Origin: Methylocystaceae bacterium
GTDB lineage: Bacteria; Pseudomonadota; Alphaproteobacteria; Rhodospirillales; Terasakiellaceae
Assembly: GCA_013373205.1 (NCBI GenBank)
Contig: JABXIG010000020.1
Location: forward strand, 62,001 to 126,000
DNA: 64,000 nt
Direction of reading: 5' to 3'
Part shown: positions 11,284 through 64,000 of the stretch, piece by piece
Position numbering within the stretch: position 1 is the stretch's first letter
How the letters are laid out: each line of letters begins with the position of its first letter
Made by a program: the position numbers and the translations under genes
Notes under the pieces: model-generated
What the model was told of the DNA's origin: nothing
Seen by the model: only the letters and a program-made list of their open reading frames with translations
Database searches by the model: none

Positions 11284-14200
11284 TTGATTCAATTCAAGAA
11301 ACTTCGCCTGACGGGGTTTAAATCCTTTGTAGATCATAGTGAGCTACTGATCAGTACCGGACTAACCGGCGTGGTCGGGCCCAATGGCTGTGGCAAGTCC
11401 AATCTGGTTGAGGCCTTGCGTTGGGTCATGGGCGAAACCTCTGCCAAGCAGATGCGTGGCGGAGAAATGGACGATGTCATCTTTGCCGGGTCCGGCAACC
11501 GCCCCGCGCGCAATGTTGCCGAAGTTGGCCTAATTCTGGACAACACCAGCCGTACAGCCCCTGCCCTGTTTAATAATGAAGAAGAACTGCACGTCACCCG
11601 CCGCATTGAACGATCTAAAGGGTCAAATTACAAGGTCAACGGCCAAGACGTACGTGCGCGCGATGTTCAGTTACTCTTTGCCGATGCAGCCACAGGGGCA
11701 AGATCCACCGCCATGGTGTCGCAAGGCAAAATCGGTCAGATCATCAGTGCCAAACCCCAAGCACGCCGTGTTATTCTGGAAGAAGCCGCCGGGATCACGG
11801 GGCTTCATTCACGCCGTCATGAAGCCGAACTACGCCTGCGCGGGGCTGAAAGTAACCTTGGGCGTCTTGATGACGTGCTGGTAACACTGGAAGCCCAGCA
11901 AAAAAACTTACAAAAACAGGCCCGTCAGGCCAGCCGTTATAAAACTATTTCAGACCGTATTCGAAAAGCAGAAAGCTTGCTCTTCCATATGCGTTGGAAC
12001 AATGCACTGGATGAATTGGACGGGGCGCGCAACGCCTATAAAGAAGCCGAGAAACGTGTCCATGACCTGACCCAACGTGCGGCCGAAGCATCTAAAGTTC
12101 AAGCAGAAGCCTCTACCCATTTGCCGGCTTTACGGGAAGCCGAAGCAGCCGCAGCAGCCGAACTCCATCGTCTGTCCATTGCGCGCGAACAGTTGGATAG
12201 CGAAGAAAAACGCCTGGATGAGATGAAGGCGGAACTGAAACGCCGCATTGGTCAGGCCACACAAGATTTGGAACGCGAAGGCGATTTCTCCAAGGATGCT
12301 GAAGCCGCGCACACACGTTTGGAACAGGAACGTGAAAATATCCTGATGCAGGGTGAAGATGATGAAATGCTGCGCGAAGAAGCCCTGGAACGTCTGGAAA
12401 TCGTTAAAGAAGAGGTCGGGGTACGCGAAGAACGCATTAATATCCTGACCGAAGAAGTCGCCCAAAGCGAAGCCAAACGCACCAGCTTGCAAAACCGTTT
12501 GCAGGAACTTGAAACACAGTTGCAAAAACTGCAAACCCGTCAAAGTGAGCTTCAACGTCAAAAAGAAGAATTGGAAGCCACCCGACCAGATGAAGATGAA
12601 TTGATGGAGGCTGAAGCCCGCCTTGAAGAAATGAGCGAGCGCAAGATGGTCCAGACAGAAGCCATCGAACAGGCTGAACAGGCCCGCATGGAAGCGCGCG
12701 AAGCTGTAAAAACAGCGACAGAAAACGTGCGTGAACATGAAGCCATCATCGCCAAGCTGGAAGCCGAAGAAGATGCCTTGGCAGAACTTCTGGACCCCAA
12801 GGGGGAAGATGTCGGCCACCCCATTTTGGATGATGTCAGTGTAACGGCTGGCTATGAAGCCGCGCTTGGTGCGGCCTTAGGCGATGATCTCTCAGCCTCG
12901 CGCGATCAGGCGGCCGCCCTACATTGGGAAGAATTACCAGACCTTGAAACCTATCTGTCTTTACCTGATGGCAGCACGGCATTGTCAGGATTTGCGCAAG
13001 CACCGAAAGAACTGGCACGCCGCTTAAACCAGATTGGCGTTGTCGATACACCCGATCAGGCCCATAGGCTGCAAGCCTCCTTGCAACAAGGCCAACGTCT
13101 GGTCAGCCTTGAAGGGGGGATGTGGCGTTGGGACGGGTTTGTGACGGCCCCCGGTGCTCCCAGTGCCGCCGCCATTCGCCTGAAACAAAAAAACCGTTTA
13201 AACGACATTCGCACCCTTTGGGAAGATGCCCGCCAAAAAGCCGACGAAGCCGAAAACCGTTTAGAACAGGCAAAAGACCGTGAAACACAAGCCGATGAAA
13301 CGGAAAAAAATTACCGCGAAGATTTGCGTGCAACCAACAGCCAGATCGAAACCGCACGTGCACATTTAAACGAACTTAAAAACCGCATCAACAGCTTTGA
13401 AAGCAAGTTGGAAAGCCTGAATGAAACCCTGGAAAGGGTCCTTCAAGAAACCGAAGACGTTGCTGAAAATCTGCTGGAAAGTAAAACCGCCCTTGAAGAT
13501 CTGCCCGAAGGTGACCAGGGGCGTGAACAACTGGCCTTATTGCGTGAAGAACTGGCCGATAAACGCAATCTTTTAATGGATCACCAGTCTGCTTTCGAGC
13601 GGATCAAGCGCGATGGAGAAAACCGCCGGCGTCGCTTAAGCGAAATCACCGAAGAACTGACATCCTGGAAAAACCGATCTGAACGCGCCCGTCGCCATAT
13701 CGACGATTTGACCGAGCGACGCAGTGTTTTGCTGGAAGAACTAGAGACCTTAGCCGAAGCCCCGCAAGAGATAGAAACCAAGCGTCAGGCCTTACTCGAC
13801 GGGATTGAACGGGCCGAAGAAAAACGCACCTTCTGCGCCGATAAACTTGTCGAAGCAGAAAGTCATTTGCGTGATGTGGATGCCCACACCCGTCAGGCCG
13901 AAGCTGAACTGGCCACATGTCGCGAAGAACGGGTGCGTTTTGAAGCCCATGTCACTCAAGGAAAGCAACTTTGTATGGCACTGGCTGAGCGTATCCGTGA
14001 TCGACTGGATTGCAAGCCGGAAGAACTGTCCGCAATTGCCGAAATTGATGAAGGCTCGGAACTACCCGACCTAGAGGCAGCCGAAAAACGTGTGGACCGC
14101 CTGCTGCGCGAACGCGACACCATGGGACCTGTCAACCTGCGTGCAGAAACCGAACTGGCTGAACTGGACGAACAGGTCCAGACCATGAACTCAGAACGCG

Positions 14201-14745
14201 ATGACCTGCTCAAAGCCATTGACAAACTGCGCCAGGGCATTAATGAGCTCAACCGTGAAGGTCGCGATCGCTTGCTGACATCTTTTAACGAAGTCAATCA
14301 GCATTTTCAGGACCTGTTCACCCGCCTGTTTGGTGGTGGTCAGGCCCATTTGCAATTGATTGAAGATGAAGACCCCTTGCAAGCCGGTCTTGAGATTATG
14401 GCCTCGCCACCGGGTAAACGCATGCAGATTTTATCTCTCCTGTCCGGTGGGGAACAGGCGCTGACCGCCCTTGCCTTGCTGTTTGGTGTCTTTTTGACTA
14501 ACCCCGCACCTATCTGTGTGCTGGATGAGGTAGATGCCCCCTTGGATGATGCCAACGTGGACCGTTTCTGTACCATGCTGGAAGAAATGTCCCGTGCGGG
14601 CACCACACGCTTTTTGATCATCACCCACCACCGCATGACCATGGCGCGGATGCAACGCCTGTTCGGTGTCACCATGACAGAACGCGGTGTCTCACAACTG
14701 GTTTCCGTTGACCTGCAAAAAGCTGAAGAATTGGTGGATAATTAA
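11284..14745 (+). CDS. smc: Chromosome segregation ATPase SMC
   Basis: The 1153-residue structural maintenance of chromosomes protein that extrudes or organises DNA loops with ScpA/ScpB. Walker A (GPNGCGKSN) is near residue 33. Two long Glu/Lys/Arg-rich coiled coils flank a hinge at about residues 500-640, which begins GHPILDDVSVTAGYEAALGAAL. The C-terminal head has the signature LSGGEQALTALALLF and Walker B CVLDEVDAPLDDANV. Translation starts at TTG 11284; the following residues, IQFKKLRLTGFKSFVD, match the normal SMC N-terminus, so no upstream extension is needed. No scpA or scpB is in the window. Confidence 0.97.
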   Translation: MIQFKKLRLTGFKSFVDHSELLISTGLTGVVGPNGCGKSNLVEALRWVMGETSAKQMRGGEMDDVIFAGSGNRPARNVAEVGLILDNTSRTAPALFNNEEELHVTRRIERSKGSNYKVNGQDVRARDVQLLFADAATGARSTAMVSQGKIGQIISAKPQARRVILEEAAGITGLHSRRHEAELRLRGAESNLGRLDDVLVTLEAQQKNLQKQARQASRYKTISDRIRKAESLLFHMRWNNALDELDGARNAYKEAEKRVHDLTQRAAEASKVQAEASTHLPALREAEAAAAAELHRLSIAREQLDSEEKRLDEMKAELKRRIGQATQDLEREGDFSKDAEAAHTRLEQERENILMQGEDDEMLREEALERLEIVKEEVGVREERINILTEEVAQSEAKRTSLQNRLQELETQLQKLQTRQSELQRQKEELEATRPDEDELMEAEARLEEMSERKMVQTEAIEQAEQARMEAREAVKTATENVREHEAIIAKLEAEEDALAELLDPKGEDVGHPILDDVSVTAGYEAALGAALGDDLSASRDQAAALHWEELPDLETYLSLPDGSTALSGFAQAPKELARRLNQIGVVDTPDQAHRLQASLQQGQRLVSLEGGMWRWDGFVTAPGAPSAAAIRLKQKNRLNDIRTLWEDARQKADEAENRLEQAKDRETQADETEKNYREDLRATNSQIETARAHLNELKNRINSFESKLESLNETLERVLQETEDVAENLLESKTALEDLPEGDQGREQLALLREELADKRNLLMDHQSAFERIKRDGENRRRRLSEITEELTSWKNRSERARRHIDDLTERRSVLLEELETLAEAPQEIETKRQALLDGIERAEEKRTFCADKLVEAESHLRDVDAHTRQAEAELATCREERVRFEAHVTQGKQLCMALAERIRDRLDCKPEELSAIAEIDEGSELPDLEAAEKRVDRLLRERDTMGPVNLRAETELAELDEQVQTMNSERDDLLKAIDKLRQGINELNREGRDRLLTSFNEVNQHFQDLFTRLFGGGQAHLQLIEDEDPLQAGLEIMASPPGKRMQILSLLSGGEQALTALALLFGVFLTNPAPICVLDEVDAPLDDANVDRFCTMLEEMSRAGTTRFLIITHHRMTMARMQRLFGVTMTERGVSQLVSVDLQKAEELVDN

Positions 14746-53878: not shown

Positions 53879-54958
53879 ATGTCAGAAGTCACGCAAAATG
53901 ATGTGAAAGAACTTTTTGAGGATGCGAACCCTGAACGGCGCGCCGTTCTGGCGCAAAAGCTCGGCCATGACCTGAATTCCAATTCCCTGTCTGAAACAGA
54001 ACAACAACTCGCTATCGCCATCTGTCAGAAACTGGCCGAAGATGTGGATATCGCTGTGCGCCAAAGCCTGTCCAAGACATTGAAAGAATGTAACGAAATC
54101 CCCAAAGAACTGGCGCTGAAACTGGCAAATGATGTCTTGGAAGTCGGCCTGCCGATGATCGAGTTCAGCACCCTCTTAGAAGATCGTGACCTGATCGCTT
54201 TGGCACGCACTGGCGACAAAGGCCGCCAACTGGCCATTTCCCATCGCAAAACCCTAAGTCCGGTTCTCTCCCACACATTAGCCGAAGAATGTGATGAAGA
54301 TGTGGTCGAGTCGCTGCTCAAGAACGATGGGGCAGAATTGGCAGATGAAACTTATGACGCCGTGCTTGACCGATTCCAGCACAGCCCCCGTATCCATGAT
54401 GGCATCGTCCATCGTCACAAGCTGCCAAAAGAAGTTGTTGAACGCATGGTCGATCTGGTCAGCGACCAATTAAAAGCCCATCTTATTAAACAACATTCCG
54501 TTTCCTCCGTTCTGGCGGAAAAAATGATCCTGGAATCACGCGAAGATGCGGTCAGACGTATTCTTGCAGACCCCCATTCCAAACGCGATGCCGCTTATTT
54601 AGTGAATGAGCTGTATAAAGCAGACCGCCTCAGCACGGAACTGATCTTTCGCGCCCTTGAAATTGGGGATCGTTCGTTTTTTGAACATGCCATGGCTAAA
54701 AAATGCAATATCTCTGTCGATGCTGCGCTGACCTTGATTAAAGACCCCGGTGAACGGGGGTTTGCTGCCCTGTACAATAAAGCAGGCCTGCCGAAGAAAG
54801 ATTTTCAGTCCATCAATTATCTTGTAGATGCAGAATATCGCAGCAAACGTCATTCACCGATTACACGGCAAAAAGATCAACCCTTGCCCTCAGAGCAGGA
54901 ACCTGAAAGCTGGCTGACCGAAACCGCCAAACCAAAGAAAAAATGGGGCTTATTCTAG
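53879..54958 (+). CDS. DUF2336 protein with helical repeats
   Basis: A 359-residue cytoplasmic protein made of helical repeats typical of DUF2336, with patterns such as VRQSLSKTLKEC, ADETYDAVLDRFQHSP, REDAVRRILADP and RGFAALYNKAGLP. The last 45 residues are charged and Pro-rich (TRQKDQPLPSEQEPE). Proteins of this family occur in alphaproteobacteria near signalling or motility genes, and this one converges on cheZ with a 35-base gap. Biochemical function is unknown. Confidence 0.82.
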   Translation: MSEVTQNDVKELFEDANPERRAVLAQKLGHDLNSNSLSETEQQLAIAICQKLAEDVDIAVRQSLSKTLKECNEIPKELALKLANDVLEVGLPMIEFSTLLEDRDLIALARTGDKGRQLAISHRKTLSPVLSHTLAEECDEDVVESLLKNDGAELADETYDAVLDRFQHSPRIHDGIVHRHKLPKEVVERMVDLVSDQLKAHLIKQHSVSSVLAEKMILESREDAVRRILADPHSKRDAAYLVNELYKADRLSTELIFRALEIGDRSFFEHAMAKKCNISVDAALTLIKDPGERGFAALYNKAGLPKKDFQSINYLVDAEYRSKRHSPITRQKDQPLPSEQEPESWLTETAKPKKKWGLF

Positions 54959-54993: not shown

Positions 54994-55803
54994 TTATCCA
55001 AACAATTTGTCGATATCATCCTGTGAGGCTTCACCACCTGCGGGAAGTTCAACCTTTTCCTTTGGTTTTTCTTCTTTCTTGGCCTCAGGTGCTGACTCAG
55101 CCGGATTATCAAACATACTATCAATCGCATCTTGTGAGACCGTTGCCGATGCAGCAGGTTCTTCTTTCGCAGGTGCTGCAGGTGCCGGGCTATCAAACAT
55201 GCTGTCGATATCGTCTTGTGAAACTTGTTCTTGTGCAGGTGGCGTAGACGGGCTACCGAACAGGGCATCGATATCGTCTTGTGAAACAGCTTCATTCATG
55301 GTTTGCGGGCCATGCATCGCGATATCGCCATCTTTCATGCCTATGACATCTTCAATGGTTTCATCGGAATCAATTGGCATTTCTTCCAAACCTTTCGGTC
55401 CGACGATTTTGACCAGACTATCCAACGTGCCTTCCAAACGATTCATAATTCGCACAATTTTGGAAATACGCTGCCCGGTCAGATCATGAAAAGAACAAGA
55501 TTCAAAAATCTTGTTCGTGCTGTCCATAATCGTGTTGCAGGATTGCTGTGCTTCATCATATTTAACATTGGCGCTTAATTCATCCACCGCCGTTAGAATA
55601 CCTTCTGCGGATTCCATGATAGTGTTAGTGGCGTCTTCTGTAGTTTCACAAATGGTGTTGAGCTGTTCAGCAACCGTGTTGAAGTGATCAACTGAAGATT
55701 TTGGATGTTTGATGGCCGCAAGCTCTGACTTGATCTTTGTAATATACAGGACCAAGTGACGGATTTGTTCCGCCAAAATTTCCATATTTCCATGCTGGCT
55801 CAT
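54994..55803 (-). CDS. cheZ: Chemotaxis phosphatase CheZ with four FliM-like CheY-binding repeats
   Basis: Dephosphorylates CheY-P to reset the flagellar motor signal. The 269 residues have the helical hairpin with the active site DLTGQ at 107-111 (Asp107, Gln111). The C-terminal 100 residues are Pro/Ala/Glu-rich and carry four copies of a short motif: VSQDDIDALFG (173-183), VSQDDIDSMF (194-203), VSQDAIDSMF (222-231) and ASQDDIDKLFG (259-269). It resembles the N-terminal CheY-binding peptide of FliM and could give CheZ extra CheY-binding sites. GGAG lies six bases before ATG 55803. No other chemotaxis genes are in the window. Confidence 0.85.
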   Translation of the reverse strand: MSQHGNMEILAEQIRHLVLYITKIKSELAAIKHPKSSVDHFNTVAEQLNTICETTEDATNTIMESAEGILTAVDELSANVKYDEAQQSCNTIMDSTNKIFESCSFHDLTGQRISKIVRIMNRLEGTLDSLVKIVGPKGLEEMPIDSDETIEDVIGMKDGDIAMHGPQTMNEAVSQDDIDALFGSPSTPPAQEQVSQDDIDSMFDSPAPAAPAKEEPAASATVSQDAIDSMFDNPAESAPEAKKEEKPKEKVELPAGGEASQDDIDKLFG

Positions 55804-55997: not shown

Positions 55998-56267
55998 TTA
56001 CTTGTCGCTGATCTTCAGATCCTTTTTTGACGGGATATTATGTTCACCCTGCCAGGAAATTTTAATATTAATGCGGTTCTGGTCATCATCCTGATTCGCA
56101 CTGATTTTCAGATGCAATAATCCTTCGGGTTCCAGCACCATATTGCCATCTTCGTCTTCTAATACGACCTTTCCCTTGCCGATCCCTTGGGTCAGGGCTT
56201 TAAGAAGACTTTTGATCGAATCAGTTGTTTGTAAAGATTCATGGCGAAACCGTGAAGACTGTTTCAT
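55998..56267 (-). CDS. Amphi-Trp domain protein (GAK system)
   Basis: An 89-residue protein with the amphi-Trp domain: N-terminal helix (SLQTTDSIKSLLKALTQGIGKG), alternating charged beta strands and Trp in NIKISWQGEH. This small domain is one of the diagnostic members of the GAK gene system. Its start overlaps the metallophosphoesterase stop by four bases, making it the last gene of the seven-gene unit. Function unknown; it might be a carrier or ligand-binding partner for the neighbouring enzymes. Confidence 0.8.
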   Translation of the reverse strand: MKQSSRFRHESLQTTDSIKSLLKALTQGIGKGKVVLEDEDGNMVLEPEGLLHLKISANQDDDQNRINIKISWQGEHNIPSKKDLKISDK

Positions 56268-57631
56268 CGTTTCTGTCTTTCCTTGTTAGGGGTCTGTAAC
56301 TGTTTAAGCGTAAGATGGGGATCAAACACTTTGATATGGGGATAATCACTTGAAACCCCCAAAACCTTGCCCTTTGGATCAATAATTGTGACGGATGCCC
56401 CGCGACCACGCACTTTTTCTTTTTTGCGTGTATGACGATCAAGACTGGTGTCACATTCAAAGTTAATCATGGAACGGCGCATGGCGATGCGTTGACCATT
56501 GTGCAAATTACGATGCCCATGGATCACCGCACTTATCCCCGCGCGACGCACATATCGCGCGCCCTTATCACTAAAGGGGTGATCCACCCGACGGTATTTG
56601 GTACGTACCGTATTACACATTGAACCATAATAAAAATCAAACGGGCTGGCTTTCAGGGCGGCCCGAAAAGCCCGGTTCATTTCTTTGGTGCCCCCTTCGT
56701 TGAGGAATTTGGCGATCTTGTTATCCAGCCCGGCATGTACAAACAGAAATGAGCCGGAACGATAGACCAGACGCATATGGTTAAAGAACCAATAAAACTC
56801 CCCTTTGGGCTCTAAAAAAAGCTCCCGCCATTTCATGACCGCTGCATAAACTTGACGTAACGTGAGCCCTTCTTCATGACATTTATCTTCAAAGCTTTCA
56901 TATTTTTTACGGATGCGGTTCAGTTCCCGTTCCACCTGCGGGCCTGAAATACGTCCTTCTGCGGCCTTGGGAAATTTCTCGAACCAACTGTGTTTTGGGT
57001 ACAGGGCATGTCGACAGGCTTTCTTGGACGGAATGCCTTTCATCGCCCCTTTATCGCTCAGGTATTCATCCACGATCTCTTTGAGCAAAGGAATGATTTT
57101 CTGTCCGGTTCGAATAAAAAAATATTCGCTTTCAACCGTCTGGGCTTTGCCCACACTAACCATCCCAAACAGCACCCGAACATCATGGTTCCCGGCCAGC
57201 ACACGCACGCGCGCGCCCTGCTTTTTAAGATGCCGGATCATACGCAGCAGCCCCAGCGAACTCGGGCCTTTATCAAAACAGTCCCCACCAATAATAAAAT
57301 TGGCATTTTTGCCGTCTTCACTTAGGACAAAATCTGTTGTCTTTTCCCCTGTTTTTTTCACCCCGCCACAAGCAACCAGCGAGGCTGCAAACGCCTCAGG
57401 GTCACCGTGAAGGTCAGAAAAAAAGAAATGCTTTCTCTTGGGGAATTTCCAGGCCTGATTTTTATTTAACGTCCGCAGCACTACCGCCAGCTTGTCACGC
57501 CCCCCATCATTGGCGGCAATAGATTTCACCCCGCCATGAGTCCAGTCGCGCGCCTCACGTGGCAAAGGCACATCAATCCATGACTTACCGTGATAATGCG
57601 GTAAAAATCGTTTTGATTTCAATTTCGTCAT
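56264..57631 (-). CDS. Metallophosphoesterase (calcineurin-like)
   Basis: A 455-residue metal-dependent phosphatase with the full motif set: SDLHGD (72-77), GDCFDKGP (116-123), GNHD (147-150) and the late VIHGHRNLH. The PPP-like GDCFDKG motif suggests a protein or small-molecule phosphatase. The 60-residue N-terminal extension and the segment of about 155-280 are not recognisable. It overlaps the amphi-Trp gene by four bases and starts at the stop of the histidine phosphatase gene, within the GAK-like operon. Confidence 0.83.
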   Translation of the reverse strand: MTKLKSKRFLPHYHGKSWIDVPLPREARDWTHGGVKSIAANDGGRDKLAVVLRTLNKNQAWKFPKRKHFFFSDLHGDPEAFAASLVACGGVKKTGEKTTDFVLSEDGKNANFIIGGDCFDKGPSSLGLLRMIRHLKKQGARVRVLAGNHDVRVLFGMVSVGKAQTVESEYFFIRTGQKIIPLLKEIVDEYLSDKGAMKGIPSKKACRHALYPKHSWFEKFPKAAEGRISGPQVERELNRIRKKYESFEDKCHEEGLTLRQVYAAVMKWRELFLEPKGEFYWFFNHMRLVYRSGSFLFVHAGLDNKIAKFLNEGGTKEMNRAFRAALKASPFDFYYGSMCNTVRTKYRRVDHPFSDKGARYVRRAGISAVIHGHRNLHNGQRIAMRRSMINFECDTSLDRHTRKKEKVRGRGASVTIIDPKGKVLGVSSDYPHIKVFDPHLTLKQLQTPNKERQKR

Positions 57632-58324
57632 TTAATCGGTGTAGCCTTCTTTAGATGTTCTGACCTTCCACTTTCCGGCCACATGCTTCCATTTATCTTC
57701 TGGCGTGACTTCAAAAATCACAGGTGTTGCGTGATACATGGACAGTTTTGCAATATCTTCAAATTTCAACACCCCCAGATGATAGGCCGCATGTCGAAAT
57801 GCCGCCCCATGTCCAACGCACAGTTTTAGAACCTTTTTTCCTTCAGGGGCCGCCATATTTTTGACCGTTTCACGCAGATGTTTTGCTACCCGAAGCCCAG
57901 CTTCCATCAGGCTTTCGGCCCCGATAAAAGGCAGACGATAATAGCTGTTAGATTTCCAGTTTGCCGGGGGCACTTCATAGCGCGGGTCGTCTTCAAGTAT
58001 CTGTTCAATGGTCTGTATATTCAGATTGGCCACAGCCCCGACCCCACGTTCAGCCAGCGCATCAAAGGTCGTAATCCGCTTGATCCCATCCAGATTCTGA
58101 CGATAGGTTTCTGCCGTCTGCCAACTCCGCAGCAGACTGGAACTATGGATCACAGGGTCCAACTTAAAACCATGCTTATCCATCAAGCTTTGCAAAATCT
58201 CTGCCCCTTCGTCGGCCTGATCAAACCCAACTTCATTCAAGCCAAAAGGCTGGTAGGCACTGGGAGCGTTTTTAATCTGGTGGTAATCCCCATGGCGGAT
58301 AAAAGCCACGTATTTACTGCTCAT
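57632..58324 (-). CDS. Histidine phosphatase family protein
   Basis: A 230-residue phosphoglycerate-mutase-like phosphatase. The N-terminal RHGDYHQ contains the phosphorylated His, and the second active-site His is in CVGHGAAFRHA (about residue 169). The family is broad (sugar phosphates, protein phosphohistidine); no substrate is predictable, but its neighbours are kinases. It abuts the metallophosphoesterase gene with no gap and is one base from the SixA-Nudix gene. Confidence 0.85.
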   Translation of the reverse strand: MSSKYVAFIRHGDYHQIKNAPSAYQPFGLNEVGFDQADEGAEILQSLMDKHGFKLDPVIHSSSLLRSWQTAETYRQNLDGIKRITTFDALAERGVGAVANLNIQTIEQILEDDPRYEVPPANWKSNSYYRLPFIGAESLMEAGLRVAKHLRETVKNMAAPEGKKVLKLCVGHGAAFRHAAYHLGVLKFEDIAKLSMYHATPVIFEVTPEDKWKHVAGKWKVRTSKEGYTD

Positions 58325-58325
58325 C

Positions 58326-59279
58326 TTACTTTTTTCTCTTACTTAAAAAATCGCTTAAGCCGCCAACAATGGCACCAAGGTCCGGGTTTTGAACCAGTTG
58401 GGCCGCACTTTCCGCCAGCACCCAGCGGCGCATGCGATGGCTTTCTTGCCAGTCTTCGCGTGTCAGTTCATTGGTCACTTCCATGGCATATACACTGACT
58501 TCACACGTTGCATCCCATTTTGGGTAACTGTAACGCCCCATTTCATCTTCAAGGACATTGCCTTCCACACCAGCTTCTTCAAAAGCTTCATTCGCAGCAG
58601 AATCTTGCGCACTTAGTCCTGGGTCATGAATACCTTTTGGCACCACCCAATGTTTATTTTTAGAAGACGACACGATCAAGACCTGCAAATCCCCTTCGTG
58701 CATGCGATATGGCACGACACAGGACTGACGATAATAATACGCAGGTCGCACCCGCATTTCATCACTATCCAAATCGGGAAACGGAAACAGTTCTGGTAAA
58801 TCTGCACTATCCACCATCTGTTCCAACGTAGCTGCCTCGGTCGACAAATCCGTCCATTCCCCATCCAGTTTAAAATGGGCCAGACTGGCAGGTTCCATAT
58901 GCTGATATTGTCCGGACAAGGCAGAAACGACACTTGCCAGTGACGGATTATGTCCCACAATCATTAAACGATCCACATCCACCGGACAGGCTTTGATGAT
59001 TTCAAGAACTGTCTGTGGCAAGGCATTGAACAAGCGCTCATCAAAATGCACAACATCCACATTCAGGCCCGATGTTTTGGTGCATTTTTCAGCCGTGCGT
59101 TTCGCACGTACCGCAGGTGAAGCAATAACATGGTCGGGCCGCAGGTCATTTTGCGCCAACCACACCCCGATCCGTTGAGCATTACGCTTGCCTTTATCTT
59201 TCAATTCCCGGCCAAAATCACCATACATGGATTTATTTTTGGCATGGCCGTGGCGCAGGATCAGAAGGTCTTTTACCAT
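58326..59279 (-). CDS. SixA-like histidine phosphatase fused to a Nudix hydrolase
   Basis: A 317-residue two-domain protein. Residues of about 1-150 are a SixA-type histidine phosphatase (RHGHAKN at 9-15, VGHNPSLA later). Residues of about 180-317 are a Nudix domain, but the Nudix box is altered: from GIHDPGL onward the expected Glu is Leu and the Arg of REUxEE is Asn, while the last Glu-Glu-x-Gly (FEEAGV) is intact. Activity of the Nudix domain is therefore uncertain. Such SixA-Nudix joins occur in polyphosphate or inositol phosphate hydrolysis. It overlaps the HPr-kinase-like gene by seven bases. Confidence 0.8.
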   Translation of the reverse strand: MVKDLLILRHGHAKNKSMYGDFGRELKDKGKRNAQRIGVWLAQNDLRPDHVIASPAVRAKRTAEKCTKTSGLNVDVVHFDERLFNALPQTVLEIIKACPVDVDRLMIVGHNPSLASVVSALSGQYQHMEPASLAHFKLDGEWTDLSTEAATLEQMVDSADLPELFPFPDLDSDEMRVRPAYYYRQSCVVPYRMHEGDLQVLIVSSSKNKHWVVPKGIHDPGLSAQDSAANEAFEEAGVEGNVLEDEMGRYSYPKWDATCEVSVYAMEVTNELTREDWQESHRMRRWVLAESAAQLVQNPDLGAIVGGLSDFLSKRKK

Positions 59280-60346
59280 GGCAATTCCTCAAGACAGATA
59301 CGCGCGGCTTCTTCAAAATCAATGCGCCCGCTGGCTTCATAGATGGGGACATCCGCTAGTGTTTCAAGGTAAGGCTGGTCATCCAATTCGGTCGTATCCA
59401 TAAAAAAGGATCCATCCTTATATTGATAAAACGGCCCCGGCGATTTCATGATCGCCTTATGCAGTAACTCAGGTCGTTCAGCCAGATTAACCCGCTTGAT
59501 CGACAATGGTTCATCACCTTCGCGCGCCCAGTTCAGGATCAAAAACCCACCCAGTTCAGCGCGTGTTGTAATCTTGTCTTCGCCATATACATCTTCCACC
59601 ATGACATCATATTTTTCTTCCAGATGCCACAGTTCTTCAACCGGCAAGGCTTCCAGCTTGGCCGCATAGTCATCCGACAACATAGGGCGCAGGGTTTTAT
59701 TATTCAGGATCGTGCCCGGATTGATGCGTGGCAGTTTCGGAATCCCCGTTGCTTCTGCGCCTTTGATGAACAGGCGATCATTTGTCAGATAACTTAGGCC
59801 TTCTGCTTCAATCATCTTCAACATAAGGGTCGATTTCCCGCCGCCGGAAAAACCCGCCATACCTAAACATTTTCCAGCGCGCACAAGACCGGACGCATGA
59901 CAGATCAAAGCCCCATCCTGTTGCAGATAATTCATATATTGTGCATTGATGTAATTAATGACCTGATTGTCATTTTCAAGGCTGGGACCAGTGGCGATCA
60001 AATGGTCCGAACTTTGTAAAAACATCATCCCGGTGCGCACTTTCAAAATCAGACGACCATCGTCCAGATCATAAAACGCATCTTTACGCCCTGTTTTGCC
60101 GGGTTCGCGTTTCCAATCAATAAATTCAACGCCCAGGTCAGCGGCTGGCCCATCAATCGCAACCACTGTGCAATCGGCCTCCCCCGCCCCAAGACAATGG
60201 GCAAAATAAGTGCCTAATTTCTCAATCAAATCGGATGAATTGGATTTCACCGCGATTTTATAACCGTCTAGATCTAGTACAATCTGACCATCGGCCAGTG
60301 TGCCGTCATTTATTAAGACGTCATAGGCCTGTTGTGCTGTTTTCAT
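59273..60346 (-). CDS. HprK-related kinase B (GAK system)
   Basis: A 357-residue kinase related to HPr kinase/phosphorylase, type B. The P-loop is GFSGGGKST (165-173), preceded by CHASG (His150), and LTNDRLF (Asp190) follows as the second acidic motif. It lacks the HprK signature region and a HPr partner in the window, so it is probably a kinase for a different protein or small molecule. GGGGAGGTGG, a strong Shine-Dalgarno, lies just before ATG 60346. It overlaps the ATP-grasp gene by four bases and the SixA-Nudix gene by seven. Confidence 0.87.
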   Translation of the reverse strand: MKTAQQAYDVLINDGTLADGQIVLDLDGYKIAVKSNSSDLIEKLGTYFAHCLGAGEADCTVVAIDGPAADLGVEFIDWKREPGKTGRKDAFYDLDDGRLILKVRTGMMFLQSSDHLIATGPSLENDNQVINYINAQYMNYLQQDGALICHASGLVRAGKCLGMAGFSGGGKSTLMLKMIEAEGLSYLTNDRLFIKGAEATGIPKLPRINPGTILNNKTLRPMLSDDYAAKLEALPVEELWHLEEKYDVMVEDVYGEDKITTRAELGGFLILNWAREGDEPLSIKRVNLAERPELLHKAIMKSPGPFYQYKDGSFFMDTTELDDQPYLETLADVPIYEASGRIDFEEAARICLEELPW

Positions 60347-61230
60347 TTCGCCACCTCCCCAAGGATATAGTCGGCATAAAGGGCAGCAGCGTCAATCCCT
60401 ATACCTTCCTTCGCGCCTTTAAACCCGCCAAAGGCAGAAACTTCAAATACAATCGGCCCGTCATCCGTATCTGCCACATCCACAGTGGTAAAATCCATAC
60501 TGAACAATTGTTGGGCCTTACTCGCCAGATCGATCGTGCTTTGGGGTGGTTCATGCAAAGCATATTTACCGCCGCTGTTAATGGTCGTATTCCAGCTGTC
60601 ACTCTGCGAAACCCGTGCATAGGTGCCGAGATATTCCCCACCCAAAAACACCATGCCATAATCGCGACCGGGCAGGTCCAGTTTCTGCTGGATGTACATC
60701 ACCTGATTATCTGCTTTAAAAGCTTCGATTTCTTTTAGGATATCCGCTTCATCATTATCAGCACTGATAATGCACATGCCACGGGCTTTCGTCGAATAAA
60801 GCGGTTTGAACACGGCTTCGCCATAGTCTTTTACAATCTGTAAAGCCACTTGCGGGTCTTCGCAGATGCACGTTTTCGGCATCGGAATCCCCCCATTTCT
60901 AAGCGTCACGGTGCATGACAAACGATCGATCATCCGGATAATGGTTTCTGCGCGCGAAAAGACCCGCACGCCTGCATTTTCGGCCAAACGTAACAGTTCA
61001 ATGCGATCCAATGTGTTGGGACTGTAAACCTGACTAATCTTTTTTACAGCCAAGCCATCCAGTTCACATAGGTTTACATCCCCCGCCCACATGGTGTTAC
61101 TTTCCAGATCCGCATGCACGTCAGCCATATCCAGCACAAGACGAAAGCCTGTTCTTTCCTCCAACGCATCAGCGAGAACTTCGGTGGACCATTTCCCCGG
61201 AATACCAATTACAGCGATTTTCTTTGTCAT
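60343..61230 (-). CDS. ATP-grasp enzyme (GAK system)
   Basis: A 295-residue ATP-grasp ligase, RimK-like. The grasp fold includes KPLYSTKARGM as the ATP Lys region, IQQKLDLPGRDYG, and FEVSAFGGFKG as the metal-binding EVxxxxG stretch (Asn of the canonical EVN replaced by Ser). Enzymes of this type join a carboxylate to an amine through an acyl phosphate. It overlaps the kinase gene by four bases and starts one base after the PhoU-APH gene. The N-terminal 70 residues carry IPGKWSTEVLADALEE, typical of the pre-ATP domain. Confidence 0.86.
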   Translation of the reverse strand: MTKKIAVIGIPGKWSTEVLADALEERTGFRLVLDMADVHADLESNTMWAGDVNLCELDGLAVKKISQVYSPNTLDRIELLRLAENAGVRVFSRAETIIRMIDRLSCTVTLRNGGIPMPKTCICEDPQVALQIVKDYGEAVFKPLYSTKARGMCIISADNDEADILKEIEAFKADNQVMYIQQKLDLPGRDYGMVFLGGEYLGTYARVSQSDSWNTTINSGGKYALHEPPQSTIDLASKAQQLFSMDFTTVDVADTDDGPIVFEVSAFGGFKGAKEGIGIDAAALYADYILGEVAK

Positions 61231-61231
61231 A

Positions 61232-62857
61232 TCAGATAAATAACTCCTTCATAGGCAATTCAAAGGAGTTCACATCCTTTTCATTCAATTCAGCAATGCG
61301 CTCTAAAATAAACACCCCGCGCAGGAACATGGCCCCTGCCAGTTCCGCATCCAGAATAAAGCGGGTCGAGGAAATGAAAGAGCGCGCTAAGCCCAGACCA
61401 AGGCGGAAATCAAAGCTTTTATCGCCTTGTTTGGCCGCAAAGTCATGGGCAAATTCATACATATGCAGCGCGGCTTTTTGGATGCGCCGACGGGTTTTAC
61501 GATCCAGCACCTGCAAACGATAGTTCGAGATCATAAAGACCGACACATCTTGTGTGTAATCCTGATAACAGGATCGATGCAGATCAATAAATTTAATCTT
61601 TTTCGTTTCCCCGTCAAAGATGATGTTATCGAGATTAAAATCCCCATGAATATAAACCGAAAAAGCAGGATCGACTTTTTCTTCCAGCGCTTTGGCTTTC
61701 GAGATCAGGTCCTCAAGGCTGCGGATTTTCTTATCACCCAGTTTTCCTTGGGCTGTTTGAAAATCACTGTGGATATCCAACACCTGACCCAAACGCTTTT
61801 GCAATTGCCCCATATGATTGGCGGCGAAAGATTTCTTACGTTTCGTTTCCTTCCACACCGCTTTCAAGGTTTTGCACAGGTGTTTTAAAGCCTTGTCCAG
61901 GACCTCTTCTTCTTCCTGAATCAGGATTTGATCAAAAGTCAGACCGGGCAAATGCTCAATCAGTAATGATGCGTTTTTACCCTGCTTGTTATAAGATAAA
62001 ATCTGTGGGGCAAGACCGGGAAAAATTTCATGCCAGTTTTCCACACTTTCTCGCTCTTCTTTCAGCTTTTCTTTTTTACCATCCTTAAAGATCGCGACAT
62101 AACCATCTTCATCGCTTGCCCCATCCGATATCCCCGAAATGCCGCTACCCGACTTGGTTTCTGCAATCGGTTCCACCTCGGCTTCAATCAAGCCCAGATC
62201 AGACAAGGCTGTTTTTAAAGAACGAAAACGGTCAATATGCATCGGTTGACCCAATTGTGCCGACATGACCGATTCAGATACATTTAACAGCACATCGCCA
62301 ATTTCTTCGACCCGTTGGGCAATAAACAAGGCGGTGACGATATCTTCTACCTTTTTGCTTTTGCGCATTTCCTTCACAGAGGCGCGAAAGATATTGTTAT
62401 AAAGTCGGTCCAGTTTGCGTTCCACATTGCCGATCTTTAAAGCTGTCTTGGTATCTTCCTGATCAATGGCCTGTTCGATCAAATCAATACCGCGTAAAGC
62501 TTCTTCGATCAAAACGGAAATACCGCTTTTCTTTAGAACTTTAACGTCCGTGACGTTCCCGATGAAATGCACACATTCAAAACAAATATGGCTGATCCGT
62601 TCCAAATCAGACGCAATGGCTTCGGCAGCGCGTAAGGAAAAAACGTTCAGGCTCCCTTTTCGGCCATGGCGCAAAGCATCAACACAGCCATCATGGATGC
62701 GCATTTTCAAATTATAGGTATACCCGCGACGATCAAGAATTCGCTGGGCAACCGTGGTGGCCTGTGTTTCCAACAAAACTTGAAAATTGGCAATCTGAGA
62801 ATGGGTTTCGGCTAATAAAAATAGTAAATTATCGCGAACGGCTTTTGGCAATCGCAT
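61232..62857 (-). CDS. PhoU-like plus APH-type kinase fusion
   Basis: A 541-residue fusion. Residues of about 1-205 are PhoU-like helical bundle with acidic FSLRAAEAIASDLERI and EDIVTALFIAQRVEEIGDVL segments. Residues of about 245-540 form an aminoglycoside-phosphotransferase-type kinase: SLLIEHLPG, then HGDFNLDN (404-411, the Brenner catalytic loop) and IDLH (424-427) for metal binding. PhoU proteins normally bind metal or regulate phosphate transport, so a kinase attached to one is unusual. It is the first gene of the seven-gene unit and diverges from the CofD-like gene. Confidence 0.82.
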   Translation of the reverse strand: MRLPKAVRDNLLFLLAETHSQIANFQVLLETQATTVAQRILDRRGYTYNLKMRIHDGCVDALRHGRKGSLNVFSLRAAEAIASDLERISHICFECVHFIGNVTDVKVLKKSGISVLIEEALRGIDLIEQAIDQEDTKTALKIGNVERKLDRLYNNIFRASVKEMRKSKKVEDIVTALFIAQRVEEIGDVLLNVSESVMSAQLGQPMHIDRFRSLKTALSDLGLIEAEVEPIAETKSGSGISGISDGASDEDGYVAIFKDGKKEKLKEERESVENWHEIFPGLAPQILSYNKQGKNASLLIEHLPGLTFDQILIQEEEEVLDKALKHLCKTLKAVWKETKRKKSFAANHMGQLQKRLGQVLDIHSDFQTAQGKLGDKKIRSLEDLISKAKALEEKVDPAFSVYIHGDFNLDNIIFDGETKKIKFIDLHRSCYQDYTQDVSVFMISNYRLQVLDRKTRRRIQKAALHMYEFAHDFAAKQGDKSFDFRLGLGLARSFISSTRFILDAELAGAMFLRGVFILERIAELNEKDVNSFELPMKELFI

Positions 62858-62951
62858 GAGTTGGTCACTTTAAGATTTCATAAAATGTTTATAGATATTT
62901 TAGTGTTACGGATTAATGTAGTCTAGTTTTATGACAGTTTGATATGGTCAA
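62858..62951. other. Divergent intergenic region of the GAK-like locus
   Basis: 94 AT-rich bases between the PhoU-APH and CofD-like starts. It must carry both promoters, but I cannot place -35/-10 elements with confidence and see no palindrome of note. Confidence 0.4.
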
Positions 62952-64000
62952 ATGAAAAAAATTACGGTTACCCGCCAAATCACCCTGCCCGATGTGCTAC
63001 GCATTCGTCGCTATGAACGCGCGCCCGAGCTTGGCCCCAAGATCCTGTTTTTCTCTGGTGGGACAGCGCTAAATGACACCAGCAAACTGCTGAAAAAATA
63101 TACCCACAATTCCATTCATCTGGTCACGCCCTTTGACAGTGGCGGTAGTTCTGCGATCTTACGTTCTGCCTTTGATATGCCAGCTGTCGGGGATTTACGC
63201 TCGCGCCTGATGGCCTTGGCCGACGATACCATCAGCGGTCAGCCCGAAGTTTTCCAACTATTTTCCTATCGTTTACCCAAGGATCAAAAACGCAAAGAGC
63301 TCCTTGCTCAGCTGCAAGCCATCGCATCCGGCAAAGATGCGCGCATCAAAGCCATCAAAAACCCCATGCGCAACCTGATCTGCACCCATTTGCAAATGTT
63401 TATGGATGCCATGCCGGACAAATTCGATTTAAAAGGCGCGAGCATCGGCAACCTGATCATCGCAGGCGGCTATCTCAACAACCGCCGCCAATTGGATCAA
63501 GTGATCTTCATGTTCTCCAAACTCGTCAATGTGCAAGGACAAGTCGCAACCACGGTCAATGACACCTTGCATCTGGCCGCAAAACTGGCCAATGGGGAAA
63601 CGCTTGTGGGCCAGCACTTGATCACAGGTAAAGAAGTCAACCCGCTAGATAGCGCCATTGATGACTTTTTCCTCACCAATAGTCTGGACAGCAGCAAACC
63701 CGCCCATTCGACTTTGCAAAAAAAGAAACGCAAACTGATTATGGATGCAGAACTGATCTGTTTTCCGCCCGGCAGCTTCTACACCAGCATCGCTGCCAAC
63801 CTGCTGCCCAAGGGCGTGGGCGCCGCCGTGCGTGATAACCCGTGCCCCAAAGTCTATTTCCCCAGCCTTGGCAATGACCCGGAACGCATCGGCATGAGCT
63901 TGGATGACACCATCTTTAAACTTCTTGAGATTCTAAATAAAGACGCAGGCGCGGACTGTCCGGCTGACAAACTGCTCAATTTCATTTTTATTGATAGTGA
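62952..64000 (+). CDS. CofD-like protein (GAK system), 3' end outside the window
   Basis: An uninterrupted frame from ATG 62952 to the window edge (349 codons) with no stop, so the gene is truncated by the window. Motifs match the CofD/YvcK family as seen in GAK loci: FFSGGTALND (33-42), TPFDSGGSSAILR (59-71), PAVGDLRSRLMALA (77-90) and GASIGNLIIAGG (162-173). CofD itself transfers a phospholactate or phosphoenolpyruvyl group onto a deazaflavin, but GAK members are not shown to do so. It diverges from the kinase operon with a 94-base gap. Confidence 0.87.
   Translation, partial: MKKITVTRQITLPDVLRIRRYERAPELGPKILFFSGGTALNDTSKLLKKYTHNSIHLVTPFDSGGSSAILRSAFDMPAVGDLRSRLMALADDTISGQPEVFQLFSYRLPKDQKRKELLAQLQAIASGKDARIKAIKNPMRNLICTHLQMFMDAMPDKFDLKGASIGNLIIAGGYLNNRRQLDQVIFMFSKLVNVQGQVATTVNDTLHLAAKLANGETLVGQHLITGKEVNPLDSAIDDFFLTNSLDSSKPAHSTLQKKKRKLIMDAELICFPPGSFYTSIAANLLPKGVGAAVRDNPCPKVYFPSLGNDPERIGMSLDDTIFKLLEILNKDAGADCPADKLLNFIFIDS

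Follow-up and report, generated by a model that had tools for sequence, protein, structure and literature searches.

Organization of the locus

The window analyzed here, a stretch of 64,000 nucleotides (bases 62001-126000 of contig 69) from the 4.09 Mb genome of a Terasakiella-like alphaproteobacterium, carries a complete operon of the GAK type, a named but uncharacterized system that has so far been a family-database label and of which the present operon is a member. Seven open reading frames (ORFs) follow one another on the minus strand between 55998 and 62857, with junctions, read 5' to 3' on forward coordinates, of -4, 0, +1, -7, -4, and +1 bases, while a CofD-like gene diverges from them on the plus strand (Table 1). 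The gene order, the coordinates, the tight junctions, and the divergent gene, all given in a preliminary description of this DNA, are confirmed from the ORFs. The four GAK families that it named (amphi-Trp, HprK_rel_B, grasp_GAK, and CofD_rel_GAK) score above the NCBI curated cut-offs, and Pfam recognizes the metallophosphoesterase, the histidine phosphatase, the SixA-type histidine phosphatase with its Nudix domain, and the PhoU and APH domains among the operon products. The remainder of the CofD-like gene was located in the 3' flank, its stop lying 145 bases beyond the window, and the complete gene encodes 397 residues (L002:9953-11146). The closest named relative among the matches is Terasakiella pusilla DSM 6293 (L074), with a CofD-like protein that is 84% identical.

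The present analysis shows that the functional unit extends beyond the four named families. Its core consists of the co-directional genes for PhoU-APH, the ATP-grasp ligase, the HprK-related kinase B (HprK-B), which is PEPCK-like, and amphi-Trp. In Pseudomonadota this core is regularly accompanied by three to five phosphatase domains.

Table 1. Genes and intergenic region of the GAK-type operon, in window coordinates
Feature	Position	Strand	Basis
amphi-Trp, 89 residues, last operon gene	55998..56267	-	NCBIfam TIGR04354, 73 bits (cut-off 31)
PPP/ApaH-like metallophosphoesterase, 455 residues	56264..57631	-	Pfam Metallophos, 36.5 bits
Histidine phosphatase (branch 1), 230 residues	57632..58324	-	Pfam His_Phos_1, 54 bits
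SixA-type histidine phosphatase-Nudix fusion, 317 residues	58326..59279	-	TIGR00249, 57 bits (below cut-off 74.5); Pfam NUDIX, 33 bits
HprK-related kinase B, predicted PEPCK-like structure, 357 residues	59273..60346	-	TIGR04355, 335 bits (cut-off 200)
GAK ATP-grasp ligase (RimK/LysX/MptN-like), 295 residues	60343..61230	-	TIGR04356, 452 bits (cut-off 300)
PhoU-APH fusion (PhoU sensor-like and APH/choline-kinase-like kinase domains), 541 residues, first operon gene	61232..62857	-	Pfam PhoU, 49.4 bits; APH, 43.8 bits
Divergent promoter region	62858..62951		weak Pho-box-like site inside
CofD_rel_GAK (YvcK/GlmR-type)	62952..64000, runs to window-equivalent 64145	+	TIGR04357, 493 bits though truncated (cut-off 340)

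Composition and distribution in Pseudomonadota

A profile search with the CofD-like protein in 84,980 species genomes gave 450 relatives, of which 80 were kept. These come mostly from marine gammaproteobacteria, many of them sulfur-oxidizing symbionts, together with a few alphaproteobacteria. In the flanked loci the order PhoU-APH, ATP-grasp, HprK-B, SixA-Nudix, histidine phosphatase, metallophosphoesterase, and amphi-Trp recurs, and since these same seven genes are found in this order in tens of genomes, the arrangement is far beyond chance. The ATP-grasp and PhoU-APH genes are present in all 51 cassettes, HprK-B in 49, the metallophosphoesterase in 48, the histidine phosphatase in 47, amphi-Trp in 46, and SixA-Nudix in 43, with median spacings between neighbors of -8 to +6 bases. 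These counts, together with the order and the spacing, identify the phosphatases and PhoU-APH as standard parts. The co-occurrence of these genes with the GAK families, and of the GAK families with one another, is thereby borne out across genomes, although the description of the phosphatases as additions to the system has to be abandoned. An extra Nudix gene heads the operon in 28 of the 51 cassettes, and a linked CofD-like gene accompanies 37.

In an unbiased sample of 398 evenly drawn Pseudomonadota genomes, PhoU-APH was found in 13, in every case inside a cassette. The GAK CofD-like protein exceeds the cut-off in six genomes of the sample, five of which are among these 13. Of 30 genomes in which the CofD-like gene is not next to the operon, 18 carry a GAK ATP-grasp gene elsewhere and 12 carry none; all 13 of the ATP-grasp neighborhoods fetched from the 18 genomes contain the cassette. 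Two further genomes (G616 and G454) possess the cassette and lack the GAK CofD. The CofD-like protein is thus a frequent but optional and separable partner. A second CofD-like kind, with ORFs of about 680-695 residues and a weak match to the GAK model (78-101 bits), was seen in several phylum-sample genomes (L040-L046).

The comparison of two Onishia species shows that the cassette was gained or lost as one block. In Onishia taeanensis (L124), a cassette of about 8 kb separates a conserved flank from the CofD-like gene, whereas in O. niordana (L152) only 187 bases lie between that flank and the corresponding CofD-like gene, the cassette being missing there and the GAK ATP-grasp gene being absent genome-wide. 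The pairwise distances of the eight families also correlate, with r of 0.67-0.89; part of this follows from relatedness alone, and the correlation is taken as supporting evidence only, shared ancestry contributing to it. A symmetrical Ap4A hydrolase, ApaH, is encoded beside or near the cassette at L199:9732-10607, L203:3718-4539, and L204:3733-4554, as identified by a model match in the first two and by close similarity to L203 in the third.

The operon in a second phylum

HprK-B was also found in 8 of 132 genomes of the phylum to which the source of locus L141, a metagenome-assembled genome labeled Candidatus Zixiibacteriota, belongs. The complete loci of this type comprise genes for a 387-residue protein, amphi-Trp, PhoU-APH, ATP-grasp, HprK-B, the CofD-like protein, and a further amphi-Trp, so that PhoU-APH is a core part in the second phylum as well. 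In one genome (G771, L141), a single chain of 779 residues combines HprK-B with the CofD-like protein, which argues for the two acting together.

The protein of about 387 residues is encoded upstream of the operon (L218:8111-9271, with homologues in L217, L219, L221, L222, L224, and L141) and has the invariant motifs HWH (HWHPEF), HPEQ (HPEQFWPILL), and GDDxH (GDDxHM). Judged by eye only, these motifs resemble those of a PHP phosphoesterase, an identity that was not retained, the Pfam, NCBIfam, and PDB profile searches having given no match.

The XXXCH-type protein, which the preliminary description had proposed to look for beyond the window, was found neither in the 3' flank nor in the whole genome (G000), and it is likewise absent from all tested cassette-bearing Pseudomonadota. 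It stands beside the operon in two second-phylum genomes, most GAK operons of that phylum being without it, and is treated here as optional and not as a defining part of the GAK core. In these two XXXCH proteins (L219:12046-12594 and L221:14485-15033) the N-terminal half is weakly amphi-Trp-like (E 2e-4 in L221), suggesting a possible relationship between the two small GAK families.

The two kinases

The AlphaFold2 model of HprK-B has a predicted local distance difference test score (pLDDT) of 94.2 and a predicted template modeling score (pTM) of 0.92. Its best match in the PDB is the ATP-dependent PEP carboxykinase 2pc9 (Z 17.7, root-mean-square deviation 4.0 Å, 300 of 357 residues), while the match to HprK (Z 13.4) covers 132 residues in the C-terminal half only. 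Judging from this model, the fold is better described as ATP-dependent PEP carboxykinase-like over its whole length, which concerns the fold only and implies no PEPCK activity. The HprK C-terminal kinase domain gives no Pfam match in the HprK-B of the window, and TIGR00679 reaches only 29 bits in the fused HprK-B::CofD homologue, well below its cut-off of 240. The earlier assignment as an HPr-kinase-like protein of type B thus stands at the level of the family model and gives way at the level of the fold. The P-loop, NDR, and His motifs are conserved among the aligned homologues.

The profile relatives of PhoU-APH in the PDB are PhoU itself (4q25, E 1e-11) and APH(3') (4feu), and the APH catalytic motifs HGDxNxDN and IDLHR are conserved. 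We know of no described protein with this architecture.

The ligase, the YvcK-like protein, the phosphatases, and amphi-Trp

The PDB relatives of the ATP-grasp protein are RimK (E 6e-19), LysX, and ArgX, and among the other NCBIfam models MptN scores best (134 bits), followed by the RimK family (103) and CofF (36). Its FEVSAFGGF motif is conserved in all 41 aligned sequences and in all six from the second phylum. Of the metal ligands, D251 and E263 are conserved, while the Asn is replaced by S265 in all members that cover the site.

All solved matches of the CofD-like protein belong to YvcK/UPF0052 (2ppv, 2o2z, and 2hzb, with E from 4e-32 to 2e-29), and its second NCBIfam match is YvcK TIGR01826 (118 bits). 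By these profile matches, the GAK "CofD" is classed as YvcK/GlmR-type and is not closer to CofD. The former label survives as a family match but not as a type, and gene and operon each occur without the other. In vitro, the Listeria YvcK protein, GlmR, acts as a uridyltransferase and forms UDP-GlcNAc from UTP and GlcNAc-1-P, with D40, D41, and N198 as important residues (PMC10128056). The GAK protein retains D40 and the PGSxYxSxxxN-motif Asn; D41 is replaced by Ser in each of the 94 aligned sequences.

The phosphatases have retained their motifs: GD..D, GNHD, and HGH are conserved in the metallophosphoesterase, RHG is found in 34 of 36 histidine phosphatases and GHGA in all 36, and RHG in 33 of 36 SixA-Nudix proteins. 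The AlphaFold2 model of amphi-Trp (pLDDT 85.5) consists of a helix and a four-stranded sheet, for which a fold search matched no known fold. In Pseudomonadota its C-terminus is not conserved and no Ser, Thr, or Asp is invariant, S11 being nearly so. In the second phylum copies of amphi-Trp flank the operon on both sides, the second of them bearing a Glu-rich tail in several genomes. An HPr-like fold, considered for the resemblance of a GIAKG...S.DG segment, was not found, though not excluded: the helix and four strands gave no HPr match, and the position equivalent to Ser46 is A, G, N, S, or T.

Possible link to phosphate

In differing arrangements, the cassette has as neighbors Na/Pi symporters (Pi, inorganic phosphate; one kind with its own PhoU), CHAD proteins, a ParA-like ATPase, CNNM/CorC, and UspA. 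CHAD is encoded in 6 of 51 cassette loci and in none of 26 CofD-only loci; it is known to bind polyphosphate (PMC6537752), and ppk-parA-CHAD clusters occur in Acidithiobacillus (PMC10892726).

Pho-box-like sites scoring at least 14/18 were found in 7 of 56 operon upstream regions and in 5 of 162 control genes, namely other genes of the same loci (P 0.014), and at a score of at least 13 the difference has P 3e-4, both tests being weakened by sequence kinship and by two controls that share the divergent promoter of the operon. Many of the best sites lie about 65-90 bases ahead of the start codon. The site of the window (62920-62937, minus strand, CTGTCATAAAACTAGACT, 14/18) is perfect in one half, CTGTCAT, and poor in the other. 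Altogether, the PhoU domain, the neighbors, the Pho-box-like sites, and the many phosphatase domains are suggestive of a role in Pi metabolism, none of them being decisive. The same genome has a polyphosphate-type cluster away from the cassette, in which Nudix, CYTH-like, and CHAD genes stand side by side (L207:8709-11366, contig C9).

Proposed function and alternatives

We propose, with a probability of roughly 45%, that the operon runs a Pi-responsive cycle in which a phosphorylated and probably amide-ligated product, either a metabolite or a modification on a carrier, is made and broken down. The PhoU domain would report cellular Pi and set the activity of the fused APH-type kinase. One or both of the APH-type and PEPCK-like kinases would transfer phosphate to one or two small acids or to an amphi-Trp-borne site, and the ATP-grasp ligase would join an amino acid to the phosphorylated product. 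Such amino-acid additions are performed by RimK, MptN, and CofF, while CofD transfers phospholactate. The YvcK-like protein could bind or transfer a nucleotide-activated form, comparable to the UDP-GlcNAc of GlmR or the phospholactate of CofD, and the Nudix, SixA, histidine-phosphatase, and metallophosphoesterase domains would dismantle the product. The likely outcome would be control of Pi uptake or storage through Na/Pi symport or polyphosphate.

This reading is supported by the inheritance of the cassette as a block, the core retained in the second phylum, the HprK-B::CofD fusion, the intact catalytic motifs, and the Pi-linked context. The interpretation given in the preliminary description is accordingly supported in part: the cycle of kinases, phosphatases, and ligase holds or gains support, while the link to PhoU and phosphate status is suggestive only.

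Several points weigh against the proposal, in addition to the limits of the Pho-box tests and the poor half of the site in the window. CHAD is no commoner with the cassette, being present in 7 of 13 cassette genomes and in 193 of 398 overall, so that no enrichment is seen at the genome level, and Na/Pi symporters are missing from several cassette genomes. The complete second-phylum operons contain no histidine-phosphatase, Nudix, or metallophosphoesterase genes. With Ser in place of the metal-binding Asn, the chemistry of the ATP-grasp protein could be different, and the same could be true of the YvcK-like protein, which has lost one of the three GlmR catalytic residues.

The main rival to a free-metabolite cycle is that amphi-Trp itself is the substrate, to which the ligase adds residues and the kinases phosphates that the phosphatases remove, no free metabolite being involved. 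RimK adds residues to S6 and LysX to LysW, both at protein C-termini, and the ligase has these two enzymes among its closest relatives of solved structure. Amphi-Trp is moreover the sole small non-enzymatic part, retained in 46 of 51 cassettes and duplicated in the second phylum, where the Glu-rich tail of the second copy would fit such a role. However, a C-terminus that is not conserved in Pseudomonadota and the lack of an invariant Ser, Thr, or Asp, save the near-invariant S11, do not favor it, while the nearest NCBIfam relative of the ligase, MptN, acts on small molecules and HprK-B resembles PEPCK, a small-molecule kinase. We consider this alternative possible but rather unlikely.

A housekeeping role, or one in the repair of damaged nucleotides or cofactors, with no signaling and with incidental Pi neighbors, would account for the Nudix, Ap4A-type, and histidine phosphatases, which are common clean-up enzymes, for the ApaH genes next to or close to the cassette in L199, L203, and L204, and for the genome-level distribution of CHAD. 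It would leave unexplained the PhoU-kinase fusion, the presence of two kinases and a ligase, and the patchy one-block occurrence, and it appears quite improbable. Little weight is given to a pathway for an F420-like coenzyme or phosphodiester tail, where the PEPCK-like enzyme would form a phospho-hydroxyacid, the CofD-like protein would transfer it, and the MptN/CofF-like ligase would add glutamate. The fusion of the kinase and CofD-like protein in G771 and the MptN and CofF scores of the ligase are consistent with it, but the structures matched by the CofD-like protein are those of YvcK rather than CofD, some cassettes lack this protein, the recurrent neighbors included no recognizable CofC/FbiD-type guanylyltransferase, and a coenzyme would hardly call for four or more phosphatase domains. 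Least probable is an inositol-pyrophosphate-like Pi signal, a diphosphorylated messenger cycled by an ATP-grasp kinase, histidine phosphatase, and Nudix enzyme and sensed by PhoU/CHAD, since the ATP-grasp protein clearly falls in the RimK ligase branch and no inositol kinase relative was seen, although the enzyme mix parallels PPIP5K and DIPP/Aps1, enzymes of Pi signaling in eukaryotes (PMC11836120, PMC11323792).

Returning to the Pi-responsive cycle, a more specific form of it, in which the operon makes and degrades an undescribed phosphorylated, amino-acid-conjugated metabolite, set by Pi through PhoU and tuning Pi uptake or polyphosphate storage, is unlikely as stated. If true, this metabolite would join PhoR-PhoB and (p)ppGpp as a third kind of phosphate signal in bacteria. 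If the Pi link itself is true, many marine and symbiotic bacteria would carry an unrecognized phosphate-control chemistry. The gene content, the PhoU-APH core, the better-supported folds, and the natural presence/absence pairs between close species make the GAK system testable.

Surroundings of the operon

At the 3' end of the operon lie genes for a DUF2336/SpbR-like protein (53879-54958, plus strand; SpbR model 322 bits, below the cut-off of 400) and for a CheZ-like chemotaxis phosphatase (54994-55803, minus strand; Pfam CheZ 40.9 bits), with no sign that either belongs to the cassette. A peak of AT skew (0.27) at 12-14 kb corresponds to 11284-14745 (plus strand), which encodes an SMC-like chromosome-segregation protein of 1153 residues (assigned by eye) and is not an insertion. 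No tandem repeats were found. A role in anti-phage defense was rejected, none of the eight proteins matching a PADLOC defense model.

Comparison with known systems

A search of the open-access literature, which did not cover subscription papers and preprints, found no paper on the GAK system, amphi-Trp, or the HprK-related families. New here are the actual gene content, PhoU-APH as a core part in both phyla, the proposed reassignment of two members as PEPCK-like and YvcK-like, the HprK-B::CofD fusion, the second-phylum operon with its undescribed 387-residue protein, the Onishia presence/absence pair, and the Pho-box signal. The names "HPr kinase" and "CofD" are misleading, and better-supported folds replace them.

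Relative to the GAK system as defined by TIGR04354, 04355, 04356, 04357, and 04358, the four main families are adjacent here and above their curated cut-offs, whereas the XXXCH protein is lacking in this genome; PhoU-APH, metallophosphoesterase, histidine phosphatase, and SixA-Nudix are standard here, with a second Nudix gene in many gammaproteobacteria. HprK-B superposes on PEPCK over most of its length but at about 13% identity and with no PEPCK sequence match, and on HPr kinase/phosphorylase in the C-terminal half only. The ligase shares the ATP-grasp fold family of RimK, LysX, and MptN, with EVS in both phyla where these relatives have the EVN metal motif. The DxGGSS, GNL, and PGS motifs are common to the CofD-like protein and YvcK/GlmR, but the gene for the former is associated with a kinase operon instead of yvcJ/rapZ. 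Finally, some of the neighboring Na/Pi symporters also carry PhoU, as a fusion at their C-terminus, whereas in the present operon the domain is joined to an APH-type kinase.

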